A DNA stretch of 64,000 nucleotides from Coniochaeta sp. PMI_546 (Eukaryota; Ascomycota; Sordariomycetes; Coniochaetales; Coniochaetaceae), in the NCBI GenBank assembly GCA_021432605.1, contig MU271143.1, forward strand, positions 4,225,277-4,289,276, written 5' to 3'. A program made the translations under genes and the position numbers. Below the pieces are notes generated by a model. The model worked only from the letters and a program-made list of their open reading frames with translations, searched no databases and had not been told where the DNA came from. The number at the start of each line of letters is the position of its first letter. Position 1 is the stretch's first letter. This document shows positions 20,573 to 53,899 of this stretch, one piece after another.

Positions 20573-22352
20573 CTACTCGTCAAGTAATGTCAGAACAATA
20601 GCCTGCGAATCTTTCACTCTGACGCTTATCTCTCCATTACTTCCAACGTTGACCGTCTCATTAGAGCATCGTCGACTTTTCATGCTCACACCATTTCCAA
20701 GACTGGAGTACTCGTACGCATACCCCGCGAATGTCAACCCAGTCTTCACATCGCTTCCAGGAGCTGTCAACCGCTCAACTTGCCACGAGGAGCCTGCCAA
20801 CTGGTTTCCAACGGAAAGCGTATAGGTAGGAACCGGCCGAGGCGTGGCAGTCGTCGAGTTATATTGATTCATGTTCAATATTGCAATACGTGCGAGATGA
20901 CCACTGGCATATGCGGCGTAGGCGGACTCGTAGGGACTCGACGAAAGACTAATCTCCACGACAGCGGTGCTAGTACTAGCGCCCAAGAATCGGGCTGCGG
21001 CTAACTTTCCATAATAAGGCGCCAAGGTCTTTGACTCGTTTCCGCCAGACGCAACAGGAGCCCATGCAGAATACGGTGCGCCGTTGGACTCTAGGTGTAT
21101 CTTGTCAGTCGGTTACTGCCTACACGACAGGCTGCGGTGTGGAAGTTCAGAGGAGAGACCACTGGAATATCCCAATAGGTGACTTACGGTGGTAGTGCAG
21201 ACGCTTGATAACACCAGTTGAGGCAGCATACAAGGTGAAGTCCATCACCCACAGGGCTGCGCCGAACGTGTCGGACAAGCCAGCAGCACCGCCTCCATAC
21301 AAGGAATTGCACTCTCCAATAACATACGGTTTGTCATCAACAGCAGCCAAGGCGTTTGCAGCGGCAACGTGCTTGCTCAGGCTTTTGACCGTGACATTGT
21401 GGTTCATAAGTGTTCCTTGCAATGTTACCCCCGGTGAGGTAGCACCAGTGATATAATTATGCAGACTTTTCTGTTTAACAGCATTCTGGGAGTCAATCCC
21501 ATCCTGGAAAGCGGCAACTTGGGAGTAGGCGCTGCCCGGGCTGGAGAATGATGGAGCCATGAACTGAGGTGTGCCAAGCTCGGGGCACGCCGCCAGTAAA
21601 TATTGCTTGAGGTGAGATGTCCCATTTTGCCATTCAGTGACAAACTGAGACACGTTCCAGTTCGATGGTCTCCATTTGCCCAGATAAAGATCCGGCTCAT
21701 TTCCGTACTCCCACATGCTGAGTTGCGAACCGATAGCTTTGCATGCCAGAGGCGCTGTCTCTGCTAAGGTGGCATAACCCGAGGCGTTGTTGGCGGCAAG
21801 GTTGAAACCGTGGGTATAAAAAGTGTCCGGAAAGGTGCGATAGGAGTCAAAGAACGATTTGCCAATACACACAATCGCCAAAGGGTCCGCGGCGCAAGAT
21901 GTTGCGGTTGCCGACTGAAGCTGCGGATCGTAGATGGCTCGGTCCCTGAAGAAATGACATCAAACATTGGTTTCAAGGACTCTGGTCCGGACCTAGACTT
22001 GTTCACTCACTGTGAATTTCCCCCTACCCTGATCACGGGCATGTCGCCCCCCTGAAGGCGGCCTAGATTCTTCAGAAGGTTGGCCGAGAAGACATTCGGC
22101 GCTGACCGAATACCTGATGATTACAAGTATTTAGTGTTTGTTTCCGCTCTTTTGTCGTGTCGGCACCATGCATTACATACCTGCGAATAGGGGAAAGCTC
22201 ACTAATTCAATTGAGAGTGAAACATACGCTGGGAAGCCAATTGGCAGAGCAGCTGAAGTTGAAGGCACTGTTACTGAGGCTTGAACAGCTGATTCTACCA
22301 GGACCGGCTGTGTGAAGAGAAGTGGTATAAGACTGGGGCGCATTTTCCTCAT
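20573..22352 (-). CDS. GH79 beta-glucuronidase-like glycoside hydrolase
   Basis: Four exons (22352-22181, 22113-22011, 21945-21188, 21090-20573) give 516 residues. The first about 25 residues resemble a secretion signal (basic MRKMRPS, hydrophobic LIPLLFTQPVLV, small residues before QASV). The family block follows: YVSLSIELVSFPLFAG, NVFSANLLKNLGRLQGG, MPVIRVGGNSQ. The catalytic acid is expected at Glu175 in WEYGNEPDLY and the nucleophile at Glu303 in VIGECNSLYGGG. The C-terminal part is a beta-sandwich typical of GH79. Family members remove glucuronic acid or 4-O-methylglucuronic acid from polysaccharides and arabinogalactan proteins. It is divergent from an MFS sugar transporter, and the shared promoter carries an element also found before the GH88/lyase pair. 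Confidence 0.9.
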
Positions 22353-23049
22353 CGCGGCACGAACAGTTCAGACAGTTGGACCAACAGAGTAAGGAGGCTA
22401 GATGAGCTTCTGCAGTATTTGCTTTGCCCGAAAAGAAAAACATGCAACAGTCAAGGTCACCAGAATAGGTCTATATTAAGGTGAGTACGGATATGACAAT
22501 GTCCATACCCTGTATGTTGTGGGCTGCTGACTGTTACTGTATCATTCCGCCAGTCTCTGACTTTTGTTTACGTGGGGCTCGGTCGGGCCGAAGTTACGTT
22601 GTGAGTGACAAGACAGGGGAAAGGGCCGGGAAAGGCTGTTGCGGGGTACCGGGCCATGTCCTTGCCGAAGCAGTCAAGGGAGAGCATGCTCACTAGGAGG
22701 GGGGACTACCCAGCAGCGGTGTGCGGCGGCGGATGGTCAATGTGCCGAAATTCCGGCCATCATCGTAATGTATTCCCCACGATCAAACTCCCCCATGGGG
22801 TCAAATCTGGGGACTATTATGGTCCTTGCCAGCAAGGACCAAGGTTAGACTAGTGCTGAATAACAAGTTGGGCTGGCCGGTTCTCTAATTGTAGTACGGC
22901 GGAGGGTGACGGACATGTACCCTCAGGAGGTGTGACTTGCATATAAGTCCGTTGTGTGGCAAACATCTACACGGGCATCTTCTGTCTCGTGTCAGATATG
23001 CTTCAAACTCTCCACTGCAATACCTAGCTGTCTTGGTCTCTGCGTCAAG
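22353..23049. promoter_or_regulatory. bidirectional promoter, GH79 / MFS sugar transporter
   Basis: This 697-nt region separates divergent starts. It contains the shared element at 22738-22755, a CGG-rich stretch at 22722-22733, CreA-like SYGGRG hexamers (GTGGGG near 22571, CTGGGG near 22806) and a TATA-like ATATAAG at 22941-22947, about 105 nt before the transporter start. Confidence 0.55.
22738..22755 (+). promoter_or_regulatory. shared promoter element, copy 1 (CAATGTGCCGAAATTCCG)
   Basis: This matches the element at 30220-30237 at 17 of 18 positions. The core holds two CCG triplets 5 nt apart, and here a CGG overlaps the second CCG, so CCG-N6-CGG is also present. That is the kind of spacing Zn2Cys6 dimers recognise. 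Binding by the Zn2Cys6 protein at 25236 is inference. Confidence 0.55.
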
Positions 23050-24678
23050 ATGGTCTTTCACGTCGATAAGACAGCCGTGCGAGGAGTTGAGGGGGTGACA
23101 CTTCGGCAGACAGGCCAGCGTGACCGCTTCTGGTGGCACTACCCAGGGCTACGCATGCTCAACTTTCTCCTACTCGGATGTATTGTTTGCGATATCACTA
23201 ACGGCTTCGACGGAAGCATGCTCAATGGCTTGCAAGTGCTCGAGTCGTGGCAAGATGCCATGGGCAAGCCCAAGGGGACGCGACTTGGAACCATCACCAG
23301 CGGGACACGATACGGGCAGTTAGCCGCTCTGGTGATCTGCGCCCCTTTGATTCAGAAGTTGGGACGACGTAAGCCGATCGCCATCGGCTCGGCCCTTGTG
23401 CTGGTCGGTGTTGCACTACAGACCGCGGCTGTCAACTACGAGATGTTCGTCCTCGCGCGCGTGATCATCGGATTCGGGAACACGATACAGAACACGGCCT
23501 GCCCAATCCTAGCTGCAGAGTTGGCACATCCCTTCCAGCGGACGCAGATTATTGGCATCCAAAACTCAACCGGCTCCCTTGGCCAGATCATGGCAGCATG
23601 GATTACATACGGCACGGCCTTCATCGTGGGTTCATGGGCCTGGCGCTTGCCATCGCTCTTACAAGCCGTTTCGTCCATATTCCAGCTGATCATGTCCTTT
23701 TTTATCCCGGAGTCGCCCCGGTGGCTTGTCCATAACAGCCGACACGAAGAAGCATACCGAATCCTGGCGAAATACCATGCTGAAGGCGACGAGAGCTCTC
23801 AGTTGTTGCAATTCGAGATGGCCGAGATCGAGGCAGCAATCGAAGCTGAGAAGGCACAAGCCTTGTCGTCATGGCTTGAATGGACCCGTACAACAGCCAA
23901 CCGGTACCGACTCTTCATCGTTGTGACATCTGGCTTTATTATTCAGTGGTGCGGAAATGCGCTTATATCGTGAGTCTTGCAGTGTTTCTTATCACATGTG
24001 TCGTTCAAGCACCGAAGCTCACCTCAAAGATATTACATCCATCTCGTTTTCAACTCGATCGGGATCACCGACTCCAAGCAGCAGCTGCTCCTCAACGGCG
24101 GCGTCACCATCAATGGCTTCGTCTGGGGCAACGTGTTCTCGCTTTTTATTGACAAGATCGGGCGCCGTCCTATGTGGTTGATTGGTATGAGCGGCATGTT
24201 CGTGTCGTTCTTGCTGTTGACAGTCTTCACCGGCGTGAATACGGGGATCGACTACGCCAATGTAGGCCTCGGCCGTGCCACTATCTTTTCGATATTCCTC
24301 TTTGGTTTCTTCTATAAGATGCCCGGCTGCATGCTCAACTCATACGTGGCCGAGGTGGCGCCTTTCGAATTGCGAGCGAAGGCGTTCGTCATCTCAAGCT
24401 TTGGAGATGCGGGTGCCAACATATTCAGCAGCTACACCAACCCGATAGGGCTGGCGGCCATTGGGTGGAAATACTACATTGTTTGGTGCTGCGTGCTAGT
24501 GAGCAACTTCGTCCTCATCTACTTCTTCTACCCAGAGACCAAGAATCTCAGTTTGGAGGAAGTCGGACAGATGTTTGACGGGCCTAACGCTGCAGATGCG
24601 AAGCTGCACGCGGCGGAAGACGTCACCGACGAGAAGAGAGCTGAGGCCAGTGTAGTAGCGACAACGATGGTCGAGTAA
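23050..24678 (+). CDS. MFS sugar transporter (SP family, lactose-permease-like)
   Basis: Two exons, 23050-23969 and 24030-24678, give 522 residues. I use the ATG at 23050 (MVFHVDKTAVRG); the frame is open further upstream but that looks like leader. Twelve transmembrane helices are visible with SP-family signatures: FDGSMLNGLQ, QKLGRRKPI, PESPRWLV (end of TM6), DKIGRRPMW and the C-terminal PETKNLSLEEV. The IGFGNTIQNTACPILAAEL segment resembles fungal lactose/cellobiose or acidic-sugar permeases. Sequence does not fix the substrate. Given its divergent pairing with GH79 and its neighbours, uptake of glucuronate or an oligouronide is a reasonable inference. It is probably co-regulated with GH79. 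Confidence 0.9.
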
Positions 24679-25235
24679 GCAGGCAGCTCAATAGGCAGCG
24701 GAATTGTTCACGAAAGTACCTTAGGTAGAGATAGTGTCAAGGTAAGGTTATCTAGCTCGAGATCGATGGTGCAAACGAGTGGTTACAAACATACAAGCTT
24801 GACAGTGAGTGTGACTGGTGCTCGGCCATGTCGCGGGGAATTAGCTACCCTGTACCCCGCAATCGAGACCTTCGGTTACTGCCCCGGCCCCAAGTCCCCT
24901 GCTATCTTGGCTTGCATTTGTCCCTGGATATGGTGGTAGTACTGCCATGGAAGTTCTGATTGGTGGAATTTGAGGATCCACCTCCTTCTTACCCGTCATC
25001 TCTCAATTCTCAAGGTGTGCTTCCAGGTTTACAATAGTACAAGAGCGAGCTTGAGGATAAAGTCTCTTTTTTGCCATCACTCTACCAACAAGGCGACTTG
25101 CTGCCTTTGTGATCATTTAGTGCCATAGTATCTCCGCAAATTTCTGTTGAACAGTCTCCCGGAATCACTGACCAGTCCACTTTACTCGGTCTCACACTGG
25201 TTGTCACCGAAACTGAGCACCGTGGCACCCTTGTC
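24679..25235. promoter_or_regulatory. intergenic region upstream of the Zn2Cys6 gene
   Basis: Downstream flank of the transporter and promoter of the regulator. No other gene is seen. There is a short palindromic TACCTTAGGTA patch near 24717. Confidence 0.4.
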
Positions 25236-28182
25236 ATGGAACATCGGCCATGGCAAGCAGCAGACGGGGGAGGAATCGATTCGGGTAGCTCGCGGCTGTC
25301 TGCGAGAGGGGAAGATGAGGACTTATTGCCCCACGAAGATCTCCCCGCATGTCAATCTTGCCGCCGGAGGAAGTCAAAGTGCTCGAGGGAGAGGCCAAAC
25401 TGTTCACAATGTAGCAGGCTAAGTGGGAAGCCCTTACGAAAGATCCGGCTTACCTCACAACAAAGTTGCTGACACGAGACACCAGGAGCTGAATGCATCT
25501 ATATTACCAAACAAAAGCCGGGTTTGAAGACCGGCGCCATTGACAACTTGAGTAGCCGGTTACGTGAGTTCCATTTCACCTTTTCACAACAGTGTGGTGC
25601 TCATTGAAGCAGGTGTGCTTGAAGAACTATTCCTGGACGATATTGGCAACAGGAAGCCGCAGTTGTCTTTTCTAGACGCCGATGCTGATGAGGCCAGCGA
25701 CCCACGTCTTGAGTCGTTATCTTCCACGTCTCATGGCAGAGGGCAAAACACGGCCCGGGAGAGTTCCACTGTGGATGAACAGTCGCCTTCAGATGTCTCG
25801 TCACAACCCCATGCCCCTCGCAAACGACGGCGTGTAGGCGGCCTTGAGCAACGGTCAGACTCTGCTGGTGATTATTGTGTCCCACCGCTACCAGCCTTAC
25901 CCCTGCTTGAAGCGATTGTTGAGGCGCATTTTCACTCATTGCACCACTGGATGCCAATCCTCCACGAGACTCGATTTCGTGCCAAGCTGAAAGACAGCCA
26001 AGAGAGAGCGAGACTCGTAGTCCTGTTCCATGCACTTGTCTCGACTTCCATCAAATACATTAGATTGGAGGACTTCGATATGACTTTGGAAGACGCCGCG
26101 CGGCAAATTCGGATTTCCAGGACGGCCGTGATGCTGAATGCTATGGAGTCGCTTTCGCTTGAAAACACCCAGGCGCTTGTCTTTCTCGCCTTCGACTATG
26201 TATTGATGCGAACCCCTGCCAGCCATCTGCCGTTCATGTTCTAACTATTTCGTTTAGATGGGCAGCGGAGAAGTCGCCAAGGCATGGCCCATCATCGGAT
26301 CTCTGACCAGAACTGTAAATTATCTTCAGTTGACAGTAGAGCCGGATGACGACTCTCGAAAGCAACAACTGCTGAGATCCTTGTCTGTTCTTGACAAGCC
26401 GCAGGACTGGACTGAGTCGGAGGGTCGTCGTAGGCTATTTTGGGTCATCTTTTTGCTTGACAGGTTCGGAAAACCCCATGCTTTTGCGGCCTCATAAGGC
26501 TCGAATCGAAGCTAACAAGTCGCATAACAGGATTTGCTCAGTCACCTCCGGGTACGGCATGTTCGGGTCTACAACAACTAGTTCTCTGCTCACATTCTAT
26601 AGGTGGCATACTGGCCTGACCTCGGATGATATGCATCGTCGGCTCCCTTGTGGTGGGGCGCTGTGGGCACGAGAAGAGCCTGTTTCGACCCCTTTCTTTG
26701 GCATATGGAATAAGTCAGCCGCAAAAATCGGTAACTCGATCGCCAATGTGCCGAATATGTATCCGTCCCCACGAGGAATAGAACAACCAAACACTCCTTC
26801 AGCAGGAGATGTCGATACCTCGAAGCTTGGTGCCTTCGCACACTGCATTGAATCAACAGAGAATCTCAGCCAAGTCACCACCTTCTTTCTTCAACAAGAC
26901 GTTGACTTTGGAGATCGTCGCGAGGTTAAAGATTGGCTAACCCGATTTAAAGAGCTTGATCTACGCCTTGTTCAGTATGTTATTCCCTCGCAATCGTCTC
27001 GCAGACTTAGTGCATGTACAGGGATGCTAAATTGTCTCTTCCAGCTGGAAGATGTTCCTGCCCCAGCAGTGGCAGGATTCAAATGTCTCGCGAGACGCAT
27101 CCATCATCAAAATGGACCCTAACTTGACCCTTGCGCATATCACGCACAATACATCGATGATTCTGCTGCATCAACACATCGCATATCCACCTTTGAGCTG
27201 GAAGGGTGTAGTTAAGTTGCCAAGTTCTTGCAGCATTGAAACGTGCCAACTTGCAGCTGTCGAAACCGCTTCGATTGTCGAGAAATACTTGAGATATACT
27301 GGCGGTATTGTCAACAGTCAATTCGCATTCTGCGCTTTTGTCGCAGCGAGGGTCTTGGTAGTCCAATGGCAGTCAAGCGAGGCCAACACCCTTGCACCGG
27401 CCTTCTTCAGCCTTCTTCAGAGCTTGCAAGATATGTCGACACGATGGCTTGGCTCCTTCGAGCACGCTTTAGATAACGCAATGTCTCGGCCGGTGAGCTA
27501 TCTAGCTACACAGACTGACTTAGCGGCCCGATATGCATCACGACTCCGCGCCCTACAATCTCGATGTGCCAGCGATGTCAATTTTGCTTCTTCAGGGCTA
27601 GCAGAAATCTTGCTGGACTCGAGCTTCGAAGGCTTTGTGGAGAAGCAGACTTGGAGTATTATTACCCATCAACAAAGTGGAAGTTATGCCAGTCTTGAGA
27701 GCAGAAGCACCAACCGGTTACAAGAACCATCACCGATTACTTCTTCAGGTTCACGAGATAACTACACTCAATCTCCTAGCATAGTGGGGGAGCTAGATCG
27801 TCAATATCACCCCATTCATAGCAACACGATTCCCGCGTCGAGACGACCAAGGCATGCCCAGCCCAGTAGAGAACGCGGCGGTCAAAGCTCAAATATAGCA
27901 GCACAAGAGCCCATTGGAGACTCACAATATGGCGGCATGACATCTCCAACACTCCCAGCTCCTCCTAGCGACATGAACGGCAGACTTCCTATTCTTGGTC
28001 CAATGTCAATGGGCATTGGTAGTTTTTGCCAGGCACAGCCTGGACTTTCCGAAGAGGACGAGCTTGCCGCGATGTCCCAGATGCTACTTGAACACCAATT
28101 TCTACAGTTGGACCGTGTCATACGGCTAGACGGGACTGATTTCTTCAATGATGCAGGAGATGGACTGCGCCTCATGTCATAA
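25236..28182 (+). CDS. Zn2Cys6 transcription factor with Fungal_trans domain
   Basis: Seven exons (25236-25422, 25486-25563, 25613-26199, 26258-26463, 26531-26551, 26603-26974, 27045-28182) join in phase to 862 residues. The zinc cluster is complete (Cys39, 42, 49, 56, 59, 66; spacing 2-6-6-2-6), and intron 1 lies between the fifth and sixth cysteines. A linker and short coiled coil follow ([19 protein letters not shown]). The middle homology region shows [29 protein letters not shown] and [21 protein letters not shown]. The C-terminal 300 residues are Ser/Gln/Pro-rich and probably activating. Exon 5 is only 21 nt. It sits between two carbohydrate-active gene pairs, which makes it the likely pathway-specific activator (inference). 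Confidence 0.88.
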
Positions 28183-28321
28183 ACTAGTGGTTCGGATCAT
28201 GTACTTTCAATATTTCGGTGCACGTCCAAATTGCACTTTGCTAAGTCTAGCATTATGCTTCCCCAGCGCAGACCAAGACATGAAATTACCCATTCTTTGC
28301 TTTACCAAAATGAAAGTGCTC

Positions 28322-29892
28322 TCATACCAGGCCCATACGGAGCAGTTTGTTGCCCAGCTCGAGAAAGTAGTAGTCGGCATACACCAACCCGAGGTCACGA
28401 TATCGCATCAAGGCACTGGCATTGTTGTTCGCCGTAGAATGCTTCAATATTGCATCCCACGTTCCCGGTGCCACCCTGACCTTGCCATGGTTGTCGACAG
28501 TAAAGCTTGCGACGTCATTCCTCTCCACTGAGTAACCTACTGTGTCAGACGCAATACGCAACGCTGCCGCCAGGTACACTGAGCTCCGTGATGAGTCTGT
28601 GGTCTGGAGTGCTTGGTGGAGAAGCAGCAGCCCATTGGCCGCAATCATACCCGCAGAGGTATCGCGGAGCGGCTGACCGTTGGTATCCATGTCTTCGTGT
28701 GGTGGTGCATCAAAGTCCCAGAGCGGCACGGCCTTGTGAGTGGGCGCGGGTGACTCTGACAACCGACGAAGAAAATAGTCGGCCATGCGTTGTGCTGCTA
28801 GGAGGAAGGTGGTGTCCTTGGTCCACATATACGTCTGTGTGAAGCCCAGGACAGCCCAGGCTTGACCCCTTGACCACGTCGATTCGTTGGAATAGCCTTG
28901 GTGCGTCATATTGAACTGGACGTTGCCGCTTTGTGGGTCAAGATTGGCAACGTGGTATGTGGAGTTGTCAGGACGCACAATTGTGCGAAGTACAGTACGG
29001 GCGTGTGTAGAAGCAATGCAGCTGAGATTGGGATTGGATGACTGATGGGATGCATAAAAGAGTAGGTCCATATCTGCAAAGTTGTCAATCAGTCGAGTAT
29101 TATAGTGAAGTTGGGGAGGGTCCCCAGGGGGGGGACGTCGCCTACTGCACATGCTGTCAATGATGATGAGGAAGTTCCTTTCCCTATCCACGATCTCATA
29201 GCTGTGGCTCACGGCCTTGTCCCAGCTACGTATAGCCTGAGTCCTCTCATCATATCGGGTAGCCAGGCTTTCAGCGGCATCAATGTATGACTTCAAACTT
29301 GCCTCTGTGCCATTAAGCTCCCAGTCAATTCTCAAAGACTGCATTATAAAGCCTAAATCGTGCGAGTTGGTTCTTGTCGCTTGAGCGTGCAATGGGGCGG
29401 TCCATCTCCGACATAGCTCCAGGAGCTGATTATGGAATGACACAGCCCCTAATTGGGGAGGACGAGGCAGAGTTTGAGGATACCGTCTGAAGCGTTCGAG
29501 TAGGCTGTATAAACAGGCTGGAAAGAAGCCGCATGTCCAGAATGTCGCAGGCTTGGAAAGATATCTGCCGGCTGCTCCTCCAAGAGGAAGGATGTATTCG
29601 GGATATGTCTCCAGGTTCGGCTACCATGATAGTCTTAACATTTGCTGGAGCAACAAAATATACGGATCAGGAAACATACGTTATGTTCAATGTAAGCCGT
29701 GGCTACTCTCCATATTTTAGCCGCAGTATTCTCGCTGAAGAGATCACGAAGACTATGTGCCATGATAGCACTTGATTCTTCATTAATCTTCTCGGGAGTT
29801 GTAATTCCAGAGACTGGACTAGGCACAGGAGAGGAATGCATGGGCTCGCCAATTGCGGACTCCTCGGAAGACGATTCGTGTTCGTCAGTCAT
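28322..29892 (-). CDS. GH88 unsaturated glucuronyl hydrolase-like
   Basis: Three exons (29892-29680, 29620-29146, 29073-28322) give 479 residues. The alpha6/alpha6-barrel family signatures are present: CGFFPACLYSLLERF, SLRIDWELNG, ERNFLIIIDSMC joined to NMDLLFYASHQ across intron 2, THQGYSNESTWSRGQAWAVLGF and DTSAGMIAANGLL. Asp232 in NMDLLF and Asp/Arg residues near SRGQAW match the expected active-site regions. GH88 enzymes hydrate the 4,5-double bond left by polysaccharide lyases and so release the terminal unsaturated uronate. There is no signal peptide (start MTDEHESSSEES), so it is probably cytosolic, as for bacterial relatives. It is divergent from the lyase-like gene at 30481; the two enzymes act in series in known pathways. 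Confidence 0.88.
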
Positions 29893-30480
29893 GTCGACGA
29901 TATGTATGGGACTTGGACAGTGCTCGTTATAACGAGAAGGGAGCTGAGCACGGTATTTAGGAGGAAACCATGTAGTTCGGCGCTAGGGTCGTGGTTCAAG
30001 GTAGATATCCTGTTGTTATTCCTCACGTTTTCTCTCAAGTGCCTTGCTGTGTGTCTGAACATGTCTTGGTTTCAGGTATATTTCACTCGGGCGACGTGAG
30101 ATATCGAGTGCAATGCTCCAGCTTACATAAGATAAGACAAACCAGATATGAGTACCAGCCGTTGTTCCCGTGGCAGTGGAAGGCCTCTTTGGTGTGGTGG
30201 CCGTGTTATTGCGGGCTACCAATGTGCCGAAATCCCGATGTCGTCGGGACGGCGGAGTATGTCCGGCGCCTCTTCCGGATTAACGGCATCACTGCTCTTG
30301 CGCTTCGGAGGAATATCTAAAGTTGAAAAGATTGACAAGGTCTGGTTATGGCTCAGTTTTGTGATAAAGATTAGAGAAACAGGAGTTTGCAAAGTCTCGG
30401 GACTTGCAAAAATCATCTTGCGACCCCTGCGCAAGGATCTTTGTTGTTTCCACCAGGCCAGAGTCTGGCATATTCCAACA
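29893..30480. promoter_or_regulatory. bidirectional promoter, GH88 / lyase-like gene
   Basis: This 588-nt region separates divergent starts. It includes the second copy of the shared element at 30220-30237 and several further CGG triplets just after it (30244-30255). Confidence 0.5.
30220..30237 (+). promoter_or_regulatory. shared promoter element, copy 2 (CAATGTGCCGAAATCCCG)
   Basis: Identical to 22738-22755 except for one T/C change at position 15. It lies about 245 nt before the lyase-like start and about 330 nt from the GH88 start, in a matching divergent-promoter setting. Confidence 0.55.
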
Positions 30481-31677
30481 ATGCCACACCCACAGACAAT
30501 TGTTTTAGAAGGCAGCCAGTTGACAGACGTCCGACGGCGTCTCCTTGACAGCCATGACCCCGTTTTGCAAGCCGCCAAGAAATGTCTAACTACCCAGGCA
30601 AATAAGTGGCTCCAGGAGGGTCCATGGTCTGTCATGGACAAGAAGAAGACGCCGCCAAGTGGTGACATGCATGACTACACCAGTCAGGCTCCCTACTGGT
30701 GGCCGTCACCAACGCCGGACGGCAGTCCTTACGTGGAGCGTGACGGACAGAAAAACCCCGAGGTGCTTAACTACACAGACCGAGTTTATGTGGAAAAGGT
30801 GTTCCTTTCCTCATACACCCTCGCGTTGGCGTGGTTCTATACTGGCGACGAAGCATATTCCCAACATGCGGCCAGAATTATCCGCACCTGGTTCATCACT
30901 CCCAGCACTCGCATGAATCCTAATCTTAACCATGCCCAGCTAATTCCCTTCGCGAATACGGGCCGGCACATCGGGATCATCGACTTTTCGCAATGGTACA
31001 CTAGCGTTTTGGATGCTGCTGCCATCTTGGCCACGGGTACAAGCTCAGGTGGCCCAGCACCGGGTTGGACGATCGAGGACATGACCGGTTTTCGCAGGTG
31101 GAACAAGGATTTCCTCGCTTGGCTTGTAAACAGCCCTTTTGGCCAGCAAGAACACGCCGAGATGAATAACCATGGGAGCTTCGCCTCTATGTTAGTTGCA
31201 GCCATCGCGCTGTTCGTCGGTGATCATCAGCAGGTGAAGTTAGAGGCCGACTGGGTGCAGCAGCACATCGACAAAACAATAGAACCCGACGGATCGCTGC
31301 CAGGTGAGCTCCGGCGGACAAGAAGCTGGCATTATTCAACATTCACTCTCCTTGCCCTAACACGACTTGCACTCGTGGTCCAGAAGATTGGAGTGAATTT
31401 GTGGTTTTACAATGGCCCGGAGGGACAGGGAATTACCAAGGCAATCGAATACGTGATCCCTGCAGCAACCGGCAGCGCACAATGGGAGCACCCGGAGCTT
31501 CAGTTCAAAGCATACGCCGCCGCCGATATCATTCGCGCGGCCGCAAATGCCGGTCATGAGCCATCAAGGGCAGTTACCGACAAACTGGAGACACCACCAG
31601 AATGTGACTTGTGGCCGTTGAGGCCGGCGCCTGAACAGTTAGATCCGGTGAAAACGGACAAAGATAGCTCTTTTTGA
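30481..31677 (+). CDS. alginate/glucuronan lyase-like protein (Alginate_lyase fold, PL38-like)
   Basis: Single exon, 398 residues, starting at ATG 30481 (MPHPQTIVLEG); the upstream in-frame extension is leader. The alpha-barrel family motifs are visible: GDMHDYTSQAPYWWPSPTP near the N-terminus, AWFYTGDEAYSQHAARIIRTW, and HAQLIPFANTGRHIG. The Asn-His pair MNNHGSFAS (N230, H231) corresponds to the catalytic pair of A1-III-type lyases, and RRTRSWHYSTF carries the candidate catalytic Tyr. Such enzymes cleave uronate polymers by beta-elimination and create the unsaturated ends that GH88 removes. No signal peptide is present, which suggests that it acts on imported oligouronides. Whether the polymer is alginate, glucuronan or another uronan is open. 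Confidence 0.8.
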   Translation: MPHPQTIVLEGSQLTDVRRRLLDSHDPVLQAAKKCLTTQANKWLQEGPWSVMDKKKTPPSGDMHDYTSQAPYWWPSPTPDGSPYVERDGQKNPEVLNYTDRVYVEKVFLSSYTLALAWFYTGDEAYSQHAARIIRTWFITPSTRMNPNLNHAQLIPFANTGRHIGIIDFSQWYTSVLDAAAILATGTSSGGPAPGWTIEDMTGFRRWNKDFLAWLVNSPFGQQEHAEMNNHGSFASMLVAAIALFVGDHQQVKLEADWVQQHIDKTIEPDGSLPGELRRTRSWHYSTFTLLALTRLALVVQKIGVNLWFYNGPEGQGITKAIEYVIPAATGSAQWEHPELQFKAYAAADIIRAAANAGHEPSRAVTDKLETPPECDLWPLRPAPEQLDPVKTDKDSSF

Positions 31678-32487: not shown

Positions 32488-34213
32488 ATGTCGCAAGCAA
32501 ACGTCCGTAACTCTTTGTCCATGCTTGTCACAATCAGCTGCTGATTTGATTTGTAGGGCGCCAAGCATGATGAAGTTCTACACGTCGCTATCATTGGCGC
32601 AGGAATTGGTGGTTTGGCCTGCGCCATCGCGTGCCGACGAGCGAATCCCCCTTTGAAGGTTACTGTCCTAGAGCGTACGCCGCAAATAGAGACAGTAGGG
32701 GCGGGGATTCATATCCCACCAAATTCCTGTCGAGAGCTGACTCGATTCGGCTTACTTGATAAACTTAAGCAAGCCGGAGGCTACCAAGTGCAGGACTTCA
32801 CGCTACGAAGGTACCAGGACGGGCACGTTATCGTTGAGAAACCTCTCAAGGGAAGGATGGAGAAGGAGTACGGGGCCGAGTGGATGTGAGTGCAGAGACC
32901 AAAAAGAGACCAAATGTGATCTGAGAGTTCCCTCTAACAACTGGAAGAGCGATACATCGGGGCGACTACCAGAAGGTTTTACTATCTGAGGCATTGGAAG
33001 TGGGCGCGGTTGTAGAAACCAATGCCGAAGTCACAAACATTGAACCTGCCGCGGACAGCCAGCAGACGATTGTGCTAAAAGACCATAGAATCATCCAGGC
33101 GGACGTGGTTATTGGCGCAGACGGTATATTCACTAACAGACCCAGTTGAGTACCCAGCTGACTTCGTTCGACAGGGCTTTGGTCTCTTGTGCGAGAAACT
33201 GTTCTCGATCGTCCTTTCCCTCCTAAGGCAACGGGCGACCTCGCATATAGAGGCACTTTCTCTCGAGAGCAGCTGCATAGCCTGGAGAATGAGCGCATAA
33301 ACAAGATTATGGAGCAGTCAAACATCCAGGTCTGGCTTGGGCCGGGACGACATGCTGTCTTTTATCCGCTGAGGAACCACACGGAGTACAACCTTGTGCT
33401 ACTGTACGTCATATGCCTTATTCTCGGTCGGTATCGGGGGTAAGGATTGGTGCTAAATCGTTGCAGAGTTGCAGATGATCTTCCAGAGGGCATGAGGACT
33501 TCACCAGGAAGTGTACAGGAAATGGCATCACATTTCAAAGGCTGGGATCCAATGTAAGTCCCACCGTCGTCATCTCTCCCGGCATGCGGCTTTTGACTCG
33601 TCATATAGCCTGAGCGATATCATATCATGCTTGAAATCCCCTTTAAAGTGGAAGCTTCTTCACTTCGAAAGCCTTGACAAATGGACGAAGGTATAACACG
33701 GACCAAGAATCCCATACGAGTATTAATGCTAAATTGGGGGAAAAGGGTACTATTGCTCTCTTAGGCGATGCTTCTCATCCCACCCTGCCATACCAAGGGC
33801 AAGGCGCAGCCATGGCGGTCGAAGACGGTGCAATTCTGGGCCGGCTCCTCGATCAGCTACAGAGCAAAGGCCTCCCTCCTAGCCAAGCGGAGAAGAACGT
33901 TCTACTAGCAGCATTGTTTCGGCTCTATGAAAAGATTCGAAAGCGTAGGACGGAAATCAATGTCGCCGGCGCCGTGCACACACGCCATTTCTACCACCTT
34001 GCAGACGGTGACGGGCAACAGCAGCGAGATAGGGAGCTGGGCCGGCTGCCATCCACCAAATGGCAAGGACGCTGCTCGTTCAATTGGGGAGATGCCGAGT
34101 ATCAAAGAAGCTTGCTGGGATTTGATGTCCTGACTGATACGGAGCAGCAATTTGAGGATTGGTGGCAGGGTTGGCAAAAGGCGGCAAACGGACACAGTAA
34201 TGGCAATGCCTAA
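32488..34213 (+). CDS. FAD-dependent monooxygenase, salicylate 1-hydroxylase type
   Basis: Seven exons (32488-32502, 32557-32885, 32948-33123, 33175-33403, 33467-33553, 33609-33690, 33746-34213) join in phase to 461 residues. In single frames it looks broken, but every break falls at a usable splice site. The motifs are intact: GAGIGGLACAIA (GxGxxG FAD motif), VGAGIHIPPNS, the DG motif in VVIGADG, and ALLGDASHPTLPYQGQGAAMAVED (GD motif). Members hydroxylate and often decarboxylate aromatic acids using NAD(P)H and O2. The first exon codes only MSQAN, so the exact start is the weakest part; its donor GTCCGT is poor. It is followed head-to-tail by a second flavin monooxygenase, which suggests a shared aromatic pathway. 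Confidence 0.85.
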
Positions 34214-34898
34214 CCTGTCTCTTTTACAGATGACGCATAGGTGTTAACGTAGTGTTCGACCTGTCATAAATAAATGATGAATTGTTTTTATTGTACATTG
34301 AGCTGTCTCGTCGGTGGGCCAAGTCGGCGGTGACGTTATGGGCCACAATACGCAAGTCTGAAGGTCAGAGGTATTAGTGTAGAAAGGGCTCGACCCCGCG
34401 GCAGATGTGTTTGAGAACCTTGAAACAGAGCTTACGTGGAGTGTAGACTACGTGTAGGTACCGTACTATGGTAGACATCGATCCCCGCATTTTGGGAGGA
34501 TCCCGTGGTGATGGCGCAGGCAAATAGGCGACCCATAGCTTCGGGTCTCGACCTTGGACGGAAGCTGGGGTTGTGGAGACCGGGTATTTTCACATCTTGG
34601 GGGATTTTTGGGGGATGATGTGTACCTCAAATGCGGAGCTGGGTCTGGGGGACCCCCATGTGTTTAACTCCTCGGGAGCGTATGGAGCGTATCCGCGTAT
34701 TCAACCCGCCCTGGGGTTTATTGGGGAAACTGCTACTACATAGTAGACCTAATTAGTGTGGGGATGTCTAGCTACCTCATGGTTCCAAAAGCAGATTGTT
34801 TAACATCACATATACCTGTCAAACCTCCAAAACTTGGTTGTTCTTCAACTGTGAATGTACTACACTCCCATCGACCAAAGACGTGAAACCTGACAATC
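34214..34898. promoter_or_regulatory. promoter of second flavin monooxygenase, rich in CreA-like sites
   Basis: This 685-nt region has at least nine SYGGRG hexamers on the two strands: 34394, 34436, 34483, 34565, 34573, 34633, 34645, 34711 and 34758 (first base). Roughly three would be expected by chance. It also has several G-runs. Carbon catabolite repression is a reasonable inference. Confidence 0.45.
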
Positions 34899-36974
34899 AT
34901 GGGCGATACGGAAATGCACGAAGCTCTCAAAGATGGGCCGCCCAAGATACAAGTGGACTACCTGATTGTGGGAACCGGCCCTGCAGGAGGTGCTCTGGCA
35001 GCTTTCATGGCATCATACGGTAAAGGGTATGACCGAGCCGTGGGCATGATTCAGGCTGACTCTCGTATTTCCAGGCATGAAGGGACTAATTGTGAGCCGG
35101 GACTCGAGCAACGCCGACACGCCCAGAGCTCACATTACCAACATGGCGGCTCTTGATTGTCTCCGGGATTTTGGCCTCGACACGCAATGCTATAAGCTAG
35201 GGACAGGAAATGACTCCATGAGGCACACCCGCTGGTCAAACACAATGGCGGGCCAGGAATATGGTCGCATCTACTCGTGGGGCAACGACCCAAGACGCAA
35301 GGTGCGTGATGTATAAGTTTGTTTAGGTCAATGGTGGACTAATTGCGGCTTATAAGGGTGACTACGAACTTGCCAGCCCGTCTCATATGCTGGACCTGCC
35401 TCAGACATTGTTGGAGCCAGTGCTGATCCGGCACGCGACCTTGAATGGCTTCAAAAGCCGCTGGGACACCGAATTTGTATCATTCAAGCAAGACGCCGAT
35501 GGTGTTACAACCACACTACTCGACAAGATCTCAGGCTCAAGCTATCAGGTCAGGTCCAAGTACCTTTTTGGCGCAGACGGAGCTCGCAGCAACATCATCC
35601 GCCAGGCATCCATTCCGCTGATTCGGCGCCCAGGCCAGGGCTGGGCCGTCAACGTGCGTATAAAGGCGGACCTGTCGCACTTGATGGAAGCACGCATGGG
35701 CAACCTGCATTGGGTTATTCAGCCCAACCTCGACACACCAGACTGGGCGTGGATCGGCTGCTTTCGAATGGTCAAGCCGTGGTACGAATGGATGTGTATC
35801 ATCTTCACGGCGCCCACCGCTGAGAGAAAGCTGCGCAGCAACGAGGAGTATTTGGTAAGGGTTAAAGAGCTACTTGGGGATGATAGTGTGGACGTTGAGG
35901 TACTGGATGTCTCAACTTGGGCAATCAATGAAACCGCCGCCGAATACTACTCTAAGGATAGAGTGTACGTTAAGATCAACCAGATATTTCATGGTGCTAC
36001 CGAGTTCGCTGACTGTGTGAGGCAACAGGTTCTGTTTGGGGGATGCGGTGCACCGACATCCTCCAAACCACGGTCTTGGATCCAACACTTGCATTCAAGA
36101 CGCACATAATCTCGCATGGAAGATCAACTATGTCGACAAGGGTAAGAATTTGCCTTATTGTACACATTGGGCATTCATTGACGTCTTGACCTTCAGGCCT
36201 AGCTGGAAATGGGCTTCTTGATACCTATAGCATTGAGCGGCAACCAGTTGGACTAGATGTGGTTACACAGTAAGTCCCAACCTCGTCTATAACAAAACGG
36301 GAGAAATAACATTCGTAAGAGCAAACGCTTCTCTCCGAAACCATAAGAATATCTGGAACATCTTGGGCAACCTAGAGCCCACTGTCGAAGAGCGTACGAA
36401 GGCACACTCTGAGCTCTACGCCGAGACTCCCGAAGGGCAACTTCGCAGGCAGGATCTAACCAAAGCTCTCAGAGCCATCGACAGAGAGGAACATGGTCTC
36501 GGAATTGAAATGAATCAGCGGTATGAATCCACCGCTGTATACCAGGTAGATCAAGGACCAAAGCCTGCCTTCACTCGAGACGCCCTTGAATACTACCATC
36601 CTACTACCTATCCTGGCGCACGATTGCCGCATGCCTGGCTCGGGAATCACATTCCGTCCAAGTACATTTCAACCATCGACTTAGCTGGGAAGGGAAAGTT
36701 CACCTTGTTCACGGGCATTGGCGGTCAGGGTTGGAAGGCGGCGGCTGCTCAAGTGTCTTCTGAGCTTGGAATACCATTCAAAGCGCATTCCATTGGGTAT
36801 GCCCAAGATTTCAAAGACGTCTACATGGATTGGGAGGCTCAGAGAGGCGTCGAAGAGAGTGGCTGTGTTGTAGTACGACCGGACCTTTTTGTCGCATGGA
36901 GGAGTCCAGCTTGGACGGAAGATGCAGTGGAGAGGTTGAGGAAGGTGATGAAATCGGTACTGTCACTGAAGTAG
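34899..36974 (+). CDS. FAD-binding aromatic hydroxylase, phenol 2-monooxygenase-like
   Basis: Six exons (34899-35019, 35075-35301, 35357-35964, 36029-36141, 36197-36269, 36320-36974) give 598 residues, matching the phenol hydroxylase family (about 600-660). Motifs: FAD-binding LIVGTGPAGGALAAF, YLFGADGARSNIIR (DG motif), and CLGDAVHRHPPNHGLGSN (GD motif). The C-terminal thioredoxin-like domain reads KFTLFTGIGGQGW and GCVVVRPDLFVAWR. The family ortho-hydroxylates phenols, yielding catechols, using NADPH and O2. Codon phase is kept at all five introns. With the salicylate-hydroxylase-like gene immediately upstream, catechol-type products are plausible, and an extradiol-type dioxygenase lies at 50.3-51.4 kb. 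The substrate is unknown. Confidence 0.88.
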
Positions 36975-37147
36975 TATTTTCAATTGTGTGCAGGTCACGG
37001 GTTTTGGACAGGCAGCCTTCTAGAGACCGTGACTATCAATGTATTCTGTTTCTTGTGAACTCTATAACTTACGGCACGAGAGCCGTATTATTTGTCATTG
37101 TTATTGATCAAATATGGATTATAGCACATGTGAGATCAACATCATTC

Positions 37148-37693
37148 TCAGTCAATGCCTCCTTCATCCTCGTCCAACTCCTGACCAGCTACGACTATCT
37201 TCTCAGCTGACTGCAAGACATAAAGCATCCTAGCCCAATCGCTCGCACTCGTGTTCCGCCATGCGTGGTTCGTCCCACGCTGTACAGCGACATCGCCTCT
37301 CCTTAGCAGCCGAGTCTCTCCTGAGTCGAGTACCAACTCAACCACGCCCTCGATGACCACCCCGAAGTCGCACGACTGTGTTCTGTGCATCGGACTCGTG
37401 TATCCTGGGGGGAAATCCACCGTACGACAAACGGTGCCGCCTGGGATTGTGATCTTTGGCGCATTGATGATGAAGTTTTGATAGATCTCGATATCTTGGT
37501 CTCTGGCCATGGAGACGGGGAAGCTTGAGGTTGCGTACATGAGACTGAACTCCATGTCGCCGCCCATTACGCGTCGGACTGGCGCTGCCTCTGGTATGAT
37601 CGTGCTGAAGCGGGCCTTGCCGGAGGCATCATGTGCAGTGATATACCTCGAATGAGGACGGAGGTTGCTTAGCCGTTCTGGTTGAGTCGACAT
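37148..37693 (-). CDS. small cupin-domain protein
   Basis: Single exon, 181 residues, starting MSTQPERLSNLRPHSRYI. A single-domain cupin: FPPGYTSPMHRTQSCDFGVV is motif 1, and RRGDVAVQRGTNHAWRN is motif 2 with its His and Asn. Motif 1 has one His followed by RT where many cupins have HxH, so the metal site may be altered or use other ligands. This pattern resembles the cupin_BLL6423-like group, found near fungal and bacterial oxidoreductases; its reaction is not known. A TATA-like stretch lies at 37801-37810, about 110 nt upstream. The gene is convergent with the phenol-hydroxylase-like gene and head-to-tail with the acyl hydrolase upstream. Confidence 0.82.
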   Translation of the reverse strand: MSTQPERLSNLRPHSRYITAHDASGKARFSTIIPEAAPVRRVMGGDMEFSLMYATSSFPVSMARDQDIEIYQNFIINAPKITIPGGTVCRTVDFPPGYTSPMHRTQSCDFGVVIEGVVELVLDSGETRLLRRGDVAVQRGTNHAWRNTSASDWARMLYVLQSAEKIVVAGQELDEDEGGID

Positions 37694-37800
37694 GTTTGCA
37701 GGAGTTCAGTATTCACATCAAGATGTTGAAGACAGATAATGAAGGTTCAGATCTGCACAGTACACGTTCAAGCAAAGATATACATCGAGGCGCATAGAGA

Positions 37801-52093: not shown

Positions 52094-53899
52094 ATGTCTC
52101 ATGAACCCAAGGAGACCAAGGAGCTTAGATCAGAAGTTGTTGACGGCTCCGACCAGACGCTTTCTGATGGTGCCGAGGATTTTGACGAACCTCGACCTCA
52201 GCTCCACGCCAAAACATGGCTTGCTATTGTTGGGGTAGGCCTCGTGTATTCCGCTCAGCTCTTCAGCCTCGTGGGCGCTGGAGTGGTAAGTGCGCACTGC
52301 TATCACGTTGAAACAAGCCACACATTGACTTGACTCTAATAGCAAGGCAATGCAATCGGTGGGCATTTTGGTCAACCTACCAAAGTCACTTGGATCACCA
52401 CCCCCATCACAATTCTTACCGTCGTTCTGTCGCCCATCGTCACGCAGGCGGCAGACTATTGGGGCCGCAAGTGGTTGCTCATTGGCATGACATTTACGGG
52501 AGTGATTGGTAGCATTGTTGTATCCCGTGCGAATTCGTTCAACGTTGTCATCATCGGATTCACCATTACCGGTATCGCCAACGGCGCTCAGGCTCTCGTC
52601 CACGTCGTCACGTCTGAGGTGCTGCCCCGCCGCTGGCGTGGTTATGCGCAAGCTAGCGATATGATCGCAACGGCCCTGGGTGCAATTACCGGTCTACTTG
52701 CTGCGGGAGGACTTAACCGGAGAAGCAGCCCAGTGTCGGAAGGCTTCCGCACCTTCTACTATATTGCTGCCGGAATTTTTTTTGTCTCCTGTGTGCTATG
52801 CGTGTTCGCCTATAACCCACCCATGACCGAAAAGCAGCTCGAGTATAAAGGGAAATTCTGGGCCAAGATGGCCAAACTTGATTGGGTGGGCTACATACTA
52901 CTCGCGATCAGCCTCGTGTTGTTTTCAGTCGGTCTATCCTACTCGAAGAACCCTTATTCTTGGTCAGACCCTCATGTCTCGGCCACATTTGCGGTTGGCA
53001 TCTTCTTTGGAATCTTGCTTGTTGCTTACGAGACCTGGGTCAAGAAGGACGGAATGATACACCATGAGCTCTTCAGTCACAACCGCAACTTCAGTATCGC
53101 TACGGTCTGTTCTTTCGGAGACGGAATCGCTTTTTTCGCGACAAACACCTACTTTGCTTACCAGGTCAGCTTCTTATATGAGCATGACGCTTTACGTACC
53201 GTTACACACTACGCTATCGTCTTCCTCGTTTCGATTCCCGCATCCGTTCTTACAGGGACGTACATATCTATCATGCGGGAAGTTCGATGGATAACCGTTC
53301 TGGCCTTCCTCATCTTCACTTCCTTCTTTGGAGGGCTGGCTTCAACCAACGAAGACTCAAGGACTCTTGTTTGGGGGCTTCCGGTCCTCTTGGGCGGAGC
53401 CTTGGGTATATCCCTCAACACTTTAGTCACCATTGCTCAAATTTCGACGCCAGTTCATCTTATCTCCTCTGCCACTGGTGTCCTGATCGGTGTGCGATCC
53501 TTGGGAGGGGTTGTCGGACTTGCCATCTACCAGGCGCTCTTCGTTGGTGAAGTGGCTAACCTACCGGCCAATGTCGGAATGGCTGTTATCTCGGCCGGTC
53601 TTCCCCGAGGAAGCGTTGCTAGTTTCATCGCAGCTCTGAAGGCTGAGAATGAGACTGCGTTGGAGGCTGTGCCGGGCATTACCGCCGAGATCATCGAGAT
53701 AGGTGAGACAGCATTGAAAGAAACGTACCTTGGTGCTTTCCATCACGTGTGGATCGCAGCATCGACTTTCGTCGGAGTCGCCGCGTTAATCGCCGCGTTT
53801 CTATTCAACCCAAAGAAAGAATTTAATATGCATGTTGATGCGCCGGTTGAAGAGCTTGAGGTGGAGGAAAGGGCTGGAGGAGCAGCCTCCCACGCTTAG
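52094..53899 (+). CDS. MFS transporter, TRI12-like (DHA14)
   Basis: Two exons, 52094-52285 and 52343-53899, give 582 residues with about fourteen hydrophobic segments. Typical TRI12/siderophore-type features: SLVGAGVQGNAIGGHFGQ across the intron, ITTPITILTVVLSPIVTQAADYWGRKW (motif A), TSEVLPRRWRGYAQA and GFRTFYYIAAGIFF. The ending is a soluble acidic tail (HVDAPVEELEVEERAGG). Fungal relatives export trichothecenes or move siderophores or drugs across the plasma membrane; which applies here cannot be told from sequence. It is divergent from the extradiol dioxygenase, so it may handle the same aromatic substrate or product. Confidence 0.86.

Follow-up and report, generated by a model that had tools for sequence, protein, structure and literature searches.

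The window analysed here, a stretch of 64,000 nucleotides from the genome of Coniochaeta sp. PMI_546 (positions 4225277-4289276 of one contig, C1, in a searched genome of 33.48 Mb and 24 contigs), carries five adjacent genes that together resemble a cluster for the use of a uronic-acid polysaccharide. An original prediction, made from the letters of this stretch, had proposed a GH79 β-glucuronidase, an MFS sugar transporter, a Zn2Cys6 regulator, a GH88 unsaturated glucuronyl hydrolase and an alginate/glucuronan-lyase-like protein as members of one pathway, arranged as two divergent pairs around the regulator. This arrangement is borne out at 20573-31677: the span is exact, with the GH79 stop codon ending at 20573 and the lyase stop at 31677, and all five predicted gene models, whose exons were chosen by frame and by comparison with relatives, are complete, with GT-AG introns throughout and no internal stops. 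In window coordinates the genes are as follows.

22352-20573, minus strand: GH79-type β-glucuronidase, 4 exons (22352-22181, 22113-22011, 21945-21188, 21090-20573), 516 amino acids
23050-24678, plus strand: MFS sugar porter (PF00083), 2 exons (23050-23969, 24030-24678), 522 amino acids
25236-28182, plus strand: Zn2Cys6 transcription factor, 7 exons (25236-25422, 25486-25563, 25613-26199, 26258-26463, 26531-26551, 26603-26974, 27045-28182), 862 amino acids
29892-28322, minus strand: GH88 unsaturated glucuronyl hydrolase, 3 exons (29892-29680, 29620-29146, 29073-28322), 479 amino acids
30481-31677, plus strand: PL38-type (PF05426) lyase, single exon, 398 amino acids

The GH79 and MFS genes diverge from a common promoter region of 697 bases and the GH88 and lyase genes from one of 588 bases, while the regulator gene lies between the two pairs and is convergent with GH88. 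Among the matches listed, the closest named relatives come from Coniochaeta ligniaria, with identities of 87% for the lyase, 86% for GH88 and 78% for the regulator.

The lyase matches the Pfam domain Alginate_lyase (PF05426) with 278 bits and finds the solved proteins 3nfv (8e-57) and 8bdq (9e-56) by sequence. We modelled it with AlphaFold2 from 40 aligned rows (pLDDT 86.7, pTM 0.89), and the model superposes on PL38 chains with TM scores of 0.78-0.85 and E values down to 7e-21 (3nfv, 0.85; 8bdq, 0.79-0.82), whereas matches to other families were far weaker (PL17, 1.6e-5; PL5, 1.3e-4 or weaker). In the sequence alignment, Tyr72, Asp88, Gln153, Asn230, His231, His284 and Tyr285 correspond to Tyr91, Asp108, Gln173, Asn242, His243, His297 and Tyr298 of BoPL38, and none of the seven varies among 40 relatives, with Tyr285 following directly on His284 in the HYSTF block. 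Six of the seven BoPL38 residues (Tyr91, Asp108, Gln173, Asn242, His297 and Tyr298) are named as mutants in titles of Protein Data Bank entries, and excerpts of PMC13169297 describe His243 and Tyr298 as acting as bases. By sequence, predicted fold and active-site residues, the lyase is PL38-like.

The GH88 protein matches eight distinct sequences of solved unsaturated glucuronyl hydrolases over the catalytic domain, with a best E value of 1.1e-34, but the Pfam search returned no match for it at E≤0.01. A close orthologue (P0121) reached 12.8 bits against the PF07470 cut-off of 26.6, the NCBIfam search gave no useful GH88 call, and none of the 120 relatives among the matches listed carries a precomputed Pfam domain, even though several bear the name GH88 at NCBI. 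The PF07470 model, whose cut-off is an annotation aid and not a definition of the family, overlooks this fungal GH88 clade, so that surveys by domain model would miss clusters of this kind. Asp159 (HDLGF) and Asp226 (IDSMC) occupy the conserved HD and ID motifs, align with Asp residues in 3wiw and are invariant in 29 relatives; we take them to be catalytic. The two family assignments for which the original prediction had named profile searches as a possible refutation fared differently in them, with the lyase recovered by PF05426 and GH88 recovered by its match to solved enzymes and not by the Pfam model.

The remaining three families were recovered by Pfam as had been proposed. GH79 contains the C-terminal domain Glyco_hydro_79C (PF16862, 83.4 bits) and a putative catalytic pair, Glu175 in NEP and Glu303 in GEC, aligned with 7dfq, whose roles we likewise presume. 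Its closest solved structure is this rhamnosyl-glucuronidase, 7dfq, at a distant similarity of E 1.1e-26, its hydrophobic N-terminus is of the secreted type as read from sequence and hydropathy, and further GH79 relatives are encoded elsewhere in the genome. The porter matches Sugar_tr with 280 bits, and the regulator combines Zn_clus (37 bits) with Fungal_trans (57 bits) and has a complete zinc cluster, CX2CX6CX6CX2CX6C.

The two divergent promoters share a motif of 17 bases, given here with its two places in the window.

22739-22755, plus strand: motif AATGTGCCGAAATYCCG, copy 1, GH79/MFS divergent promoter, candidate operator
30221-30237, plus strand: motif AATGTGCCGAAATYCCG, copy 2, GH88/lyase divergent promoter, candidate operator

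A search of all 33.48 Mb for TGTGCCGAAATNCCG found exactly these two exact copies, one per divergent promoter, and none for the reversed pattern used as a control. Because the only two exact copies in the genome are distributed in this way, the motif ties the GH79/MFS pair to the GH88/lyase pair. It contains CCG-N5-CCG, a spacing typical of Zn2Cys6 sites, and we regard it as a candidate operator that is probably recognized by the cluster regulator. Allowing one mismatch added six further places in the genome. We found no wider regulon, since up to two mismatches gave 160 matches genome-wide, of which the first places were listed, against 118 for the reversed control; one two-mismatch copy lies ∼3.2 kb upstream of a secreted PL38 gene of the same genome. 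Up to three mismatches gave no copy in a second GH88-regulator locus described below, and inspection of each divergent promoter for internal repeats found none.

Signal peptides were called by reading the N-termini together with hydropathy, and none was seen in this way for the window lyase or GH88. The lyase and its close fungal relatives begin at the conserved core; the lyase relatives from Streptomyces, Mycena and Pseudogymnoascus have a hydrophobic N-terminus. The lyase and GH88 are thus probably cytosolic, and together would form the intracellular end of a pathway rather than an extracellular polymer degrader.

We then asked where the same genes lie together in other fungi, using searches with the lyase, GH88 and regulator from which 120 rows each were listed, every row standing for a 90% cluster, so that a non-match does not equal absence. 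Neighbouring lyase, GH88 and regulator genes were found in several genera, in line with the synteny that the original prediction had called for. Consecutive locus tags for all three occur in Phialemonium thermophilum (3789/3790/3791) and Sporothrix eucalyptigena (005070/005071/005072). Lyase and GH88 carry adjacent or nearby tags in Sporothrix curviconia (005348/005349), S. bragantina (000997/000996) and S. thermara (004540/004541), in Penicillium atrosanguineum (007920/007921), in Cladophialophora chaetospira (009293/009295) and in Trichoderma virens (011061/011065), and lyase and regulator do so in Trichoderma viride (004480/004479), T. virens FT-333 (010740/010741), Penicillium verhagenii (007295/007293) and P. 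odoratum (005254/005258). Escovopsis is also among the genera in which the three are linked in pairs or threes. A common contig, inferred from the equal size of the longest contig and entered by hand, was found among the matches listed for lyase and GH88 in 16 cases (two on short contigs of 6984 and 13725 bases), for lyase and regulator in 11, for GH88 and regulator in 26 and for all three in 5. Co-occurrence on multimegabase contigs is weak when taken alone, and the neighbouring locus tags are the strong part of this evidence. The transporter joins the set in one species: the Trichoderma austrokoningii gene model P0255 fuses a transporter (81.6% over 467 amino acids to the window MFS) with a regulator (52%) in the order seen in the window, a fusion that probably arose when gene prediction wrongly merged two adjacent genes.

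Among bacteria, we compared 80 Streptomyces lyase loci retained from 479 relatives, some of them cut short. GH88 lies directly downstream of the lyase, in convergent orientation, in seven of these. A Streptomyces origin of the whole cluster was considered and rejected, as 12 neighbour families viewed by eye (riboflavin synthesis and permease genes, for example), on which no family search was made, did not look uronate related.

The Coniochaeta genome itself holds a second GH88 (52% to the window GH88) on another contig (C3:288000-297900, 3767-9850), convergent, as in the window cluster, with a Zn2Cys6 paralogue (40.6% over 645 amino acids). This locus differs from the cluster in its neighbours, a DUF2264 protein and another MFS, and in having no lyase among the listed open frames of its 9.9 kb; DUF2264 proteins include GH154 glucuronidases. 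Together with the 26 contigs shared by GH88 and regulator, the pair suggests that GH88 and regulator formed a module first and that the lyase joined it later, in a single group of lineages.

Trees were built from hand-picked rows, 49 of the 120 plus a paralogue from contig C5 for the lyase (midpoint rooted), 33 of 120 plus two rows from the own genome for GH88, and 32 of 120 plus the window protein for the regulator. In the lyase tree, one branch (93/92) sets off the signal-less fungal lyases (22 rows, leaving 12 ungrouped rows out of the count) and another (100/99) the Streptomyces rows; the midpoint root parts Cladophialophora from the other members of its group. The Penicillium rows join Phialemonium in the lyase (98/97) and regulator (100/99) trees, and in the GH88 tree they sit inside the Sordariomycete group of Coniochaeta, Sporothrix and Phialemonium (100/99), where the place of Phialemonium is weak (90/77); they thereby stand apart from the remaining Eurotiomycetes. 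A second Penicillium type of regulator groups elsewhere. Penicillium and Phialemonium belong, as we assume for the class and order of all the fungi in these trees, to different fungal classes, and since they group for lyase and regulator, a transfer of the cluster between classes is hinted at and is a fair reading of the trees. Carried further, the cluster might be a transferable fungal counterpart of a bacterial utilization locus, in which the last β-elimination has become cytosolic, a signal-less PL38 was added to an older, duplicated GH88-regulator pair, and the unit moved between Sordariomycetes and Penicillium; we put this forward tentatively, as a possible history and not as the expected one.

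Which polymer feeds the pathway can be approached through the other lyases of the genome. It encodes a PL20 (C5:2264037-2264678) and two PL7 lyases (C5:877187-877849 and C3:448633-449268), all with hydrophobic N-termini. The comparison with solved structures covered PL20 and one of the two PL7 enzymes: the only solved match of PL20 is glucuronan lyase A (2zzj, 9e-93), and the PL7 is closest to the solved glucuronan lyase 7nde (2e-61). A second PF05426 gene, the PL38-type paralogue on C5 (region 829000-838900, 5708-4443), has a signal-like N-terminus. Beside it lie a CBM1-bearing hydrolase and a γ-glutamyltranspeptidase-like gene, both named by eye. The Pfam search for Lyase_8 (PL8) gave no matches in this genome and likewise none in the control genomes, so that it does not speak for absence.

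Among characterized PL38 enzymes, excerpts of PMC13027841 and PMC9029943 list CUL-I and TpPL38A as glucuronan lyases, Aly38A and BoPL38 as alginate lyases and RiPL38 as a hyaluronan/chondroitin lyase, and TpPL38A is the only characterized fungal member that they name. We set alginate aside as the default substrate, as the 'alginate lyase' names stem from PF05426 and two characterized PL38 enzymes are glucuronan lyases. Because the own PL20 and PL7 are nearest to glucuronan lyases and PL38 includes characterized glucuronan lyases, glucuronan is the best single guess for the polymer. The alginate/glucuronan-lyase-like label of the original prediction therefore stands as to family and can be narrowed to a PL38-like enzyme that is probably intracellular and for which glucuronan is the likelier substrate. 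TpPL38A, from Trichoderma parareesei, reportedly acts exolytically.

Taken together, we read the five genes as a regulated catabolic unit for the import and cytosolic breakdown of β-1,4-glucuronan-type oligouronides, to which we assign a probability of roughly 0.58. Secreted lyases encoded elsewhere (PL20, PL7 and the secreted PL38 paralogue) would break the polymer down to oligomers that end in an unsaturated residue, the secreted GH79 of the cluster might trim terminal β-glucuronic acid, and the MFS porter would import oligomers or disaccharides. In the cytosol, the PL38-type lyase, with its active-site residues in place, would cleave the oligomers by β-elimination and GH88, which also retains its key residues, would remove the unsaturated residue to give 4-deoxy-hexoseulose uronate and glucuronate. 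The Zn2Cys6 protein would switch on both divergent promoters by binding TGTGCCGAAATYCCG, the motif present in each. A shared uronate pathway with its own transporter and regulator, as first proposed, gains from the synteny of lyase, GH88, regulator and MFS and from the common motif in the case of GH79.

Several observations weigh against this reading. The 17-base motif was spotted by eye and post hoc; shuffled promoter pairs had 17 of 18 bases in common in 1 of 300 cases and 16 or more in 2 of 300, and when three mismatches were allowed, shuffling the window 100 times also gave two matches in 3 cases. Near the PL20, PL7 and secreted PL38 genes of this genome the motif does not occur, either exactly or with one mismatch. 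The lyase and regulator of Coniochaeta sp. 2T2.1 do not share a contig with its GH88 orthologue, and 73 of the 80 Streptomyces lyase loci have no GH88 in the DNA covered, which for some loci was cut short. The synteny evidence spans lyase, GH88, regulator and MFS, with GH79 outside its scope, and GH79 had a match in none of the 80 Streptomyces loci. The PL38 family also does not fix the substrate, since its members cut alginate, hyaluronan or chondroitin as well.

This last point leaves room for the same import-and-cleave cluster acting on another uronic-acid glycan, such as side chains of arabinogalactan proteins or gums, glucuronoxylan fragments, alginate, a hyaluronan-like polymer or a bacterial exopolysaccharide, with GH79 freeing a glucuronide-ended oligosaccharide outside and the lyase and GH88 finishing the work inside. 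Such a role would agree with the broad specificity of PL38 in the excerpts cited above, with a rhamnosyl-glucuronidase as the best solved match of GH79 (E 1.1e-26), and with fungi in which GH88 and the same type of regulator share a contig and no lyase was found among the matches listed. The similarity to 7dfq is distant, however, the nearest solved relatives of the secreted-type PL20 and PL7 of the genome are glucuronan lyases, and so is the one characterized fungal PL38 named in those excerpts; we consider another glycan unlikely. It is somewhat doubtful, too, that the functional unit stops at lyase, GH88, regulator and MFS, with GH79 a local joiner or an unrelated gene beside the MFS promoter. 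The scope of the synteny, the Streptomyces loci and the other GH79 relatives in the genome would all allow for this, but the GH79/MFS promoter has the motif that is found exactly only there and between GH88 and the lyase. Fungal genomes are gene dense, and genes of the GH79 and MFS families abound in them, so that five unrelated genes could have come together by chance; consecutive lyase, GH88 and regulator tags in different genera, the fused MFS-regulator model and the common motif speak against it, and the synteny above all makes a chance assembly highly improbable.

Beside the cluster, at 32542-37705, the window contains two FAD-dependent monooxygenase-like genes and a cupin gene, which may form an aromatic-degradation group; the first monooxygenase-like gene was named solely from a match below the Pfam cut-off and the second from an aromatic-ring hydroxylase C-terminus. 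An open reading frame at 52343-53896 has similarity to TRI12-type MFS efflux pumps.

If the reading as a glucuronan oligomer unit holds, fungal glucuronan catabolism would gain a means of uptake, a cleavage reaction inside the cell and a regulator of its own with a candidate operator; we found none of these in the literature searched, seen partly as excerpts. The enzyme families and this kind of locus are already known, and an excerpt of PMC9281073 mentions PL38 in genomes of Sporothrix; new are the fungal arrangement with a predicted cytosolic lyase step and the candidate operator. No description of a fungal PL38-GH88-regulator cluster stood out in the literature searched, and an earlier one may exist, for example in Pilgaard 2022 or Ronne 2023. 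Excerpts of PMC10512326 and PMC7928374 report glucuronan in Agaricus and glucuronic acid in the walls of Mucoromycotina, and a glucuronan module may for this reason bear on the feeding of mycoparasites and litter fungi.

The nearest fungal parallel is the glucuronan lyase system of T. parareesei (Pilgaard et al. 2022), which, according to excerpts of papers citing it (PMC13027841, PMC9029943 and PMC10512326), includes the PL38 TpPL38A. It resembles the system proposed here in pairing a fungus with a PL38 glucuronan lyase, to which the Coniochaeta genome adds PL20 and PL7 enzymes closest to glucuronan lyases, and differs in that the citing mentions cover the lyases and do not extend to a cluster in which GH88, a transporter and a regulator accompany them. 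At the level of single enzymes, the lyase shares its fold and all seven compared active-site residues with BoPL38 of Bacteroides ovatus (8bdq and the 9fhX/9fiX series) at an identity of 28-30%, but has no visible signal peptide, and BoPL38 is, in the excerpts available, an alginate lyase of an alginate locus, unlike the glucuronan role proposed for the window lyase. GH88 is similarly related to the bacterial unsaturated glucuronyl hydrolases 1vd5, 3wiw and 2zzr (E 1e-30 to 1e-34, with conserved HD and ID motifs), from which it is set apart as a member of a fungal clade that has an extended N-terminus and falls below the PF07470 cut-off. As a whole, the cluster recalls the bacterial uronate polysaccharide utilization loci in bringing together a lyase, an unsaturated uronyl hydrolase, a transporter and a regulator, with the lyase-GH88 adjacency itself seen in seven of the 80 Streptomyces relatives, whereas its intron-bearing fungal genes, the MFS porter, the Zn2Cys6 regulator and the divergent promoters distinguish it from them.

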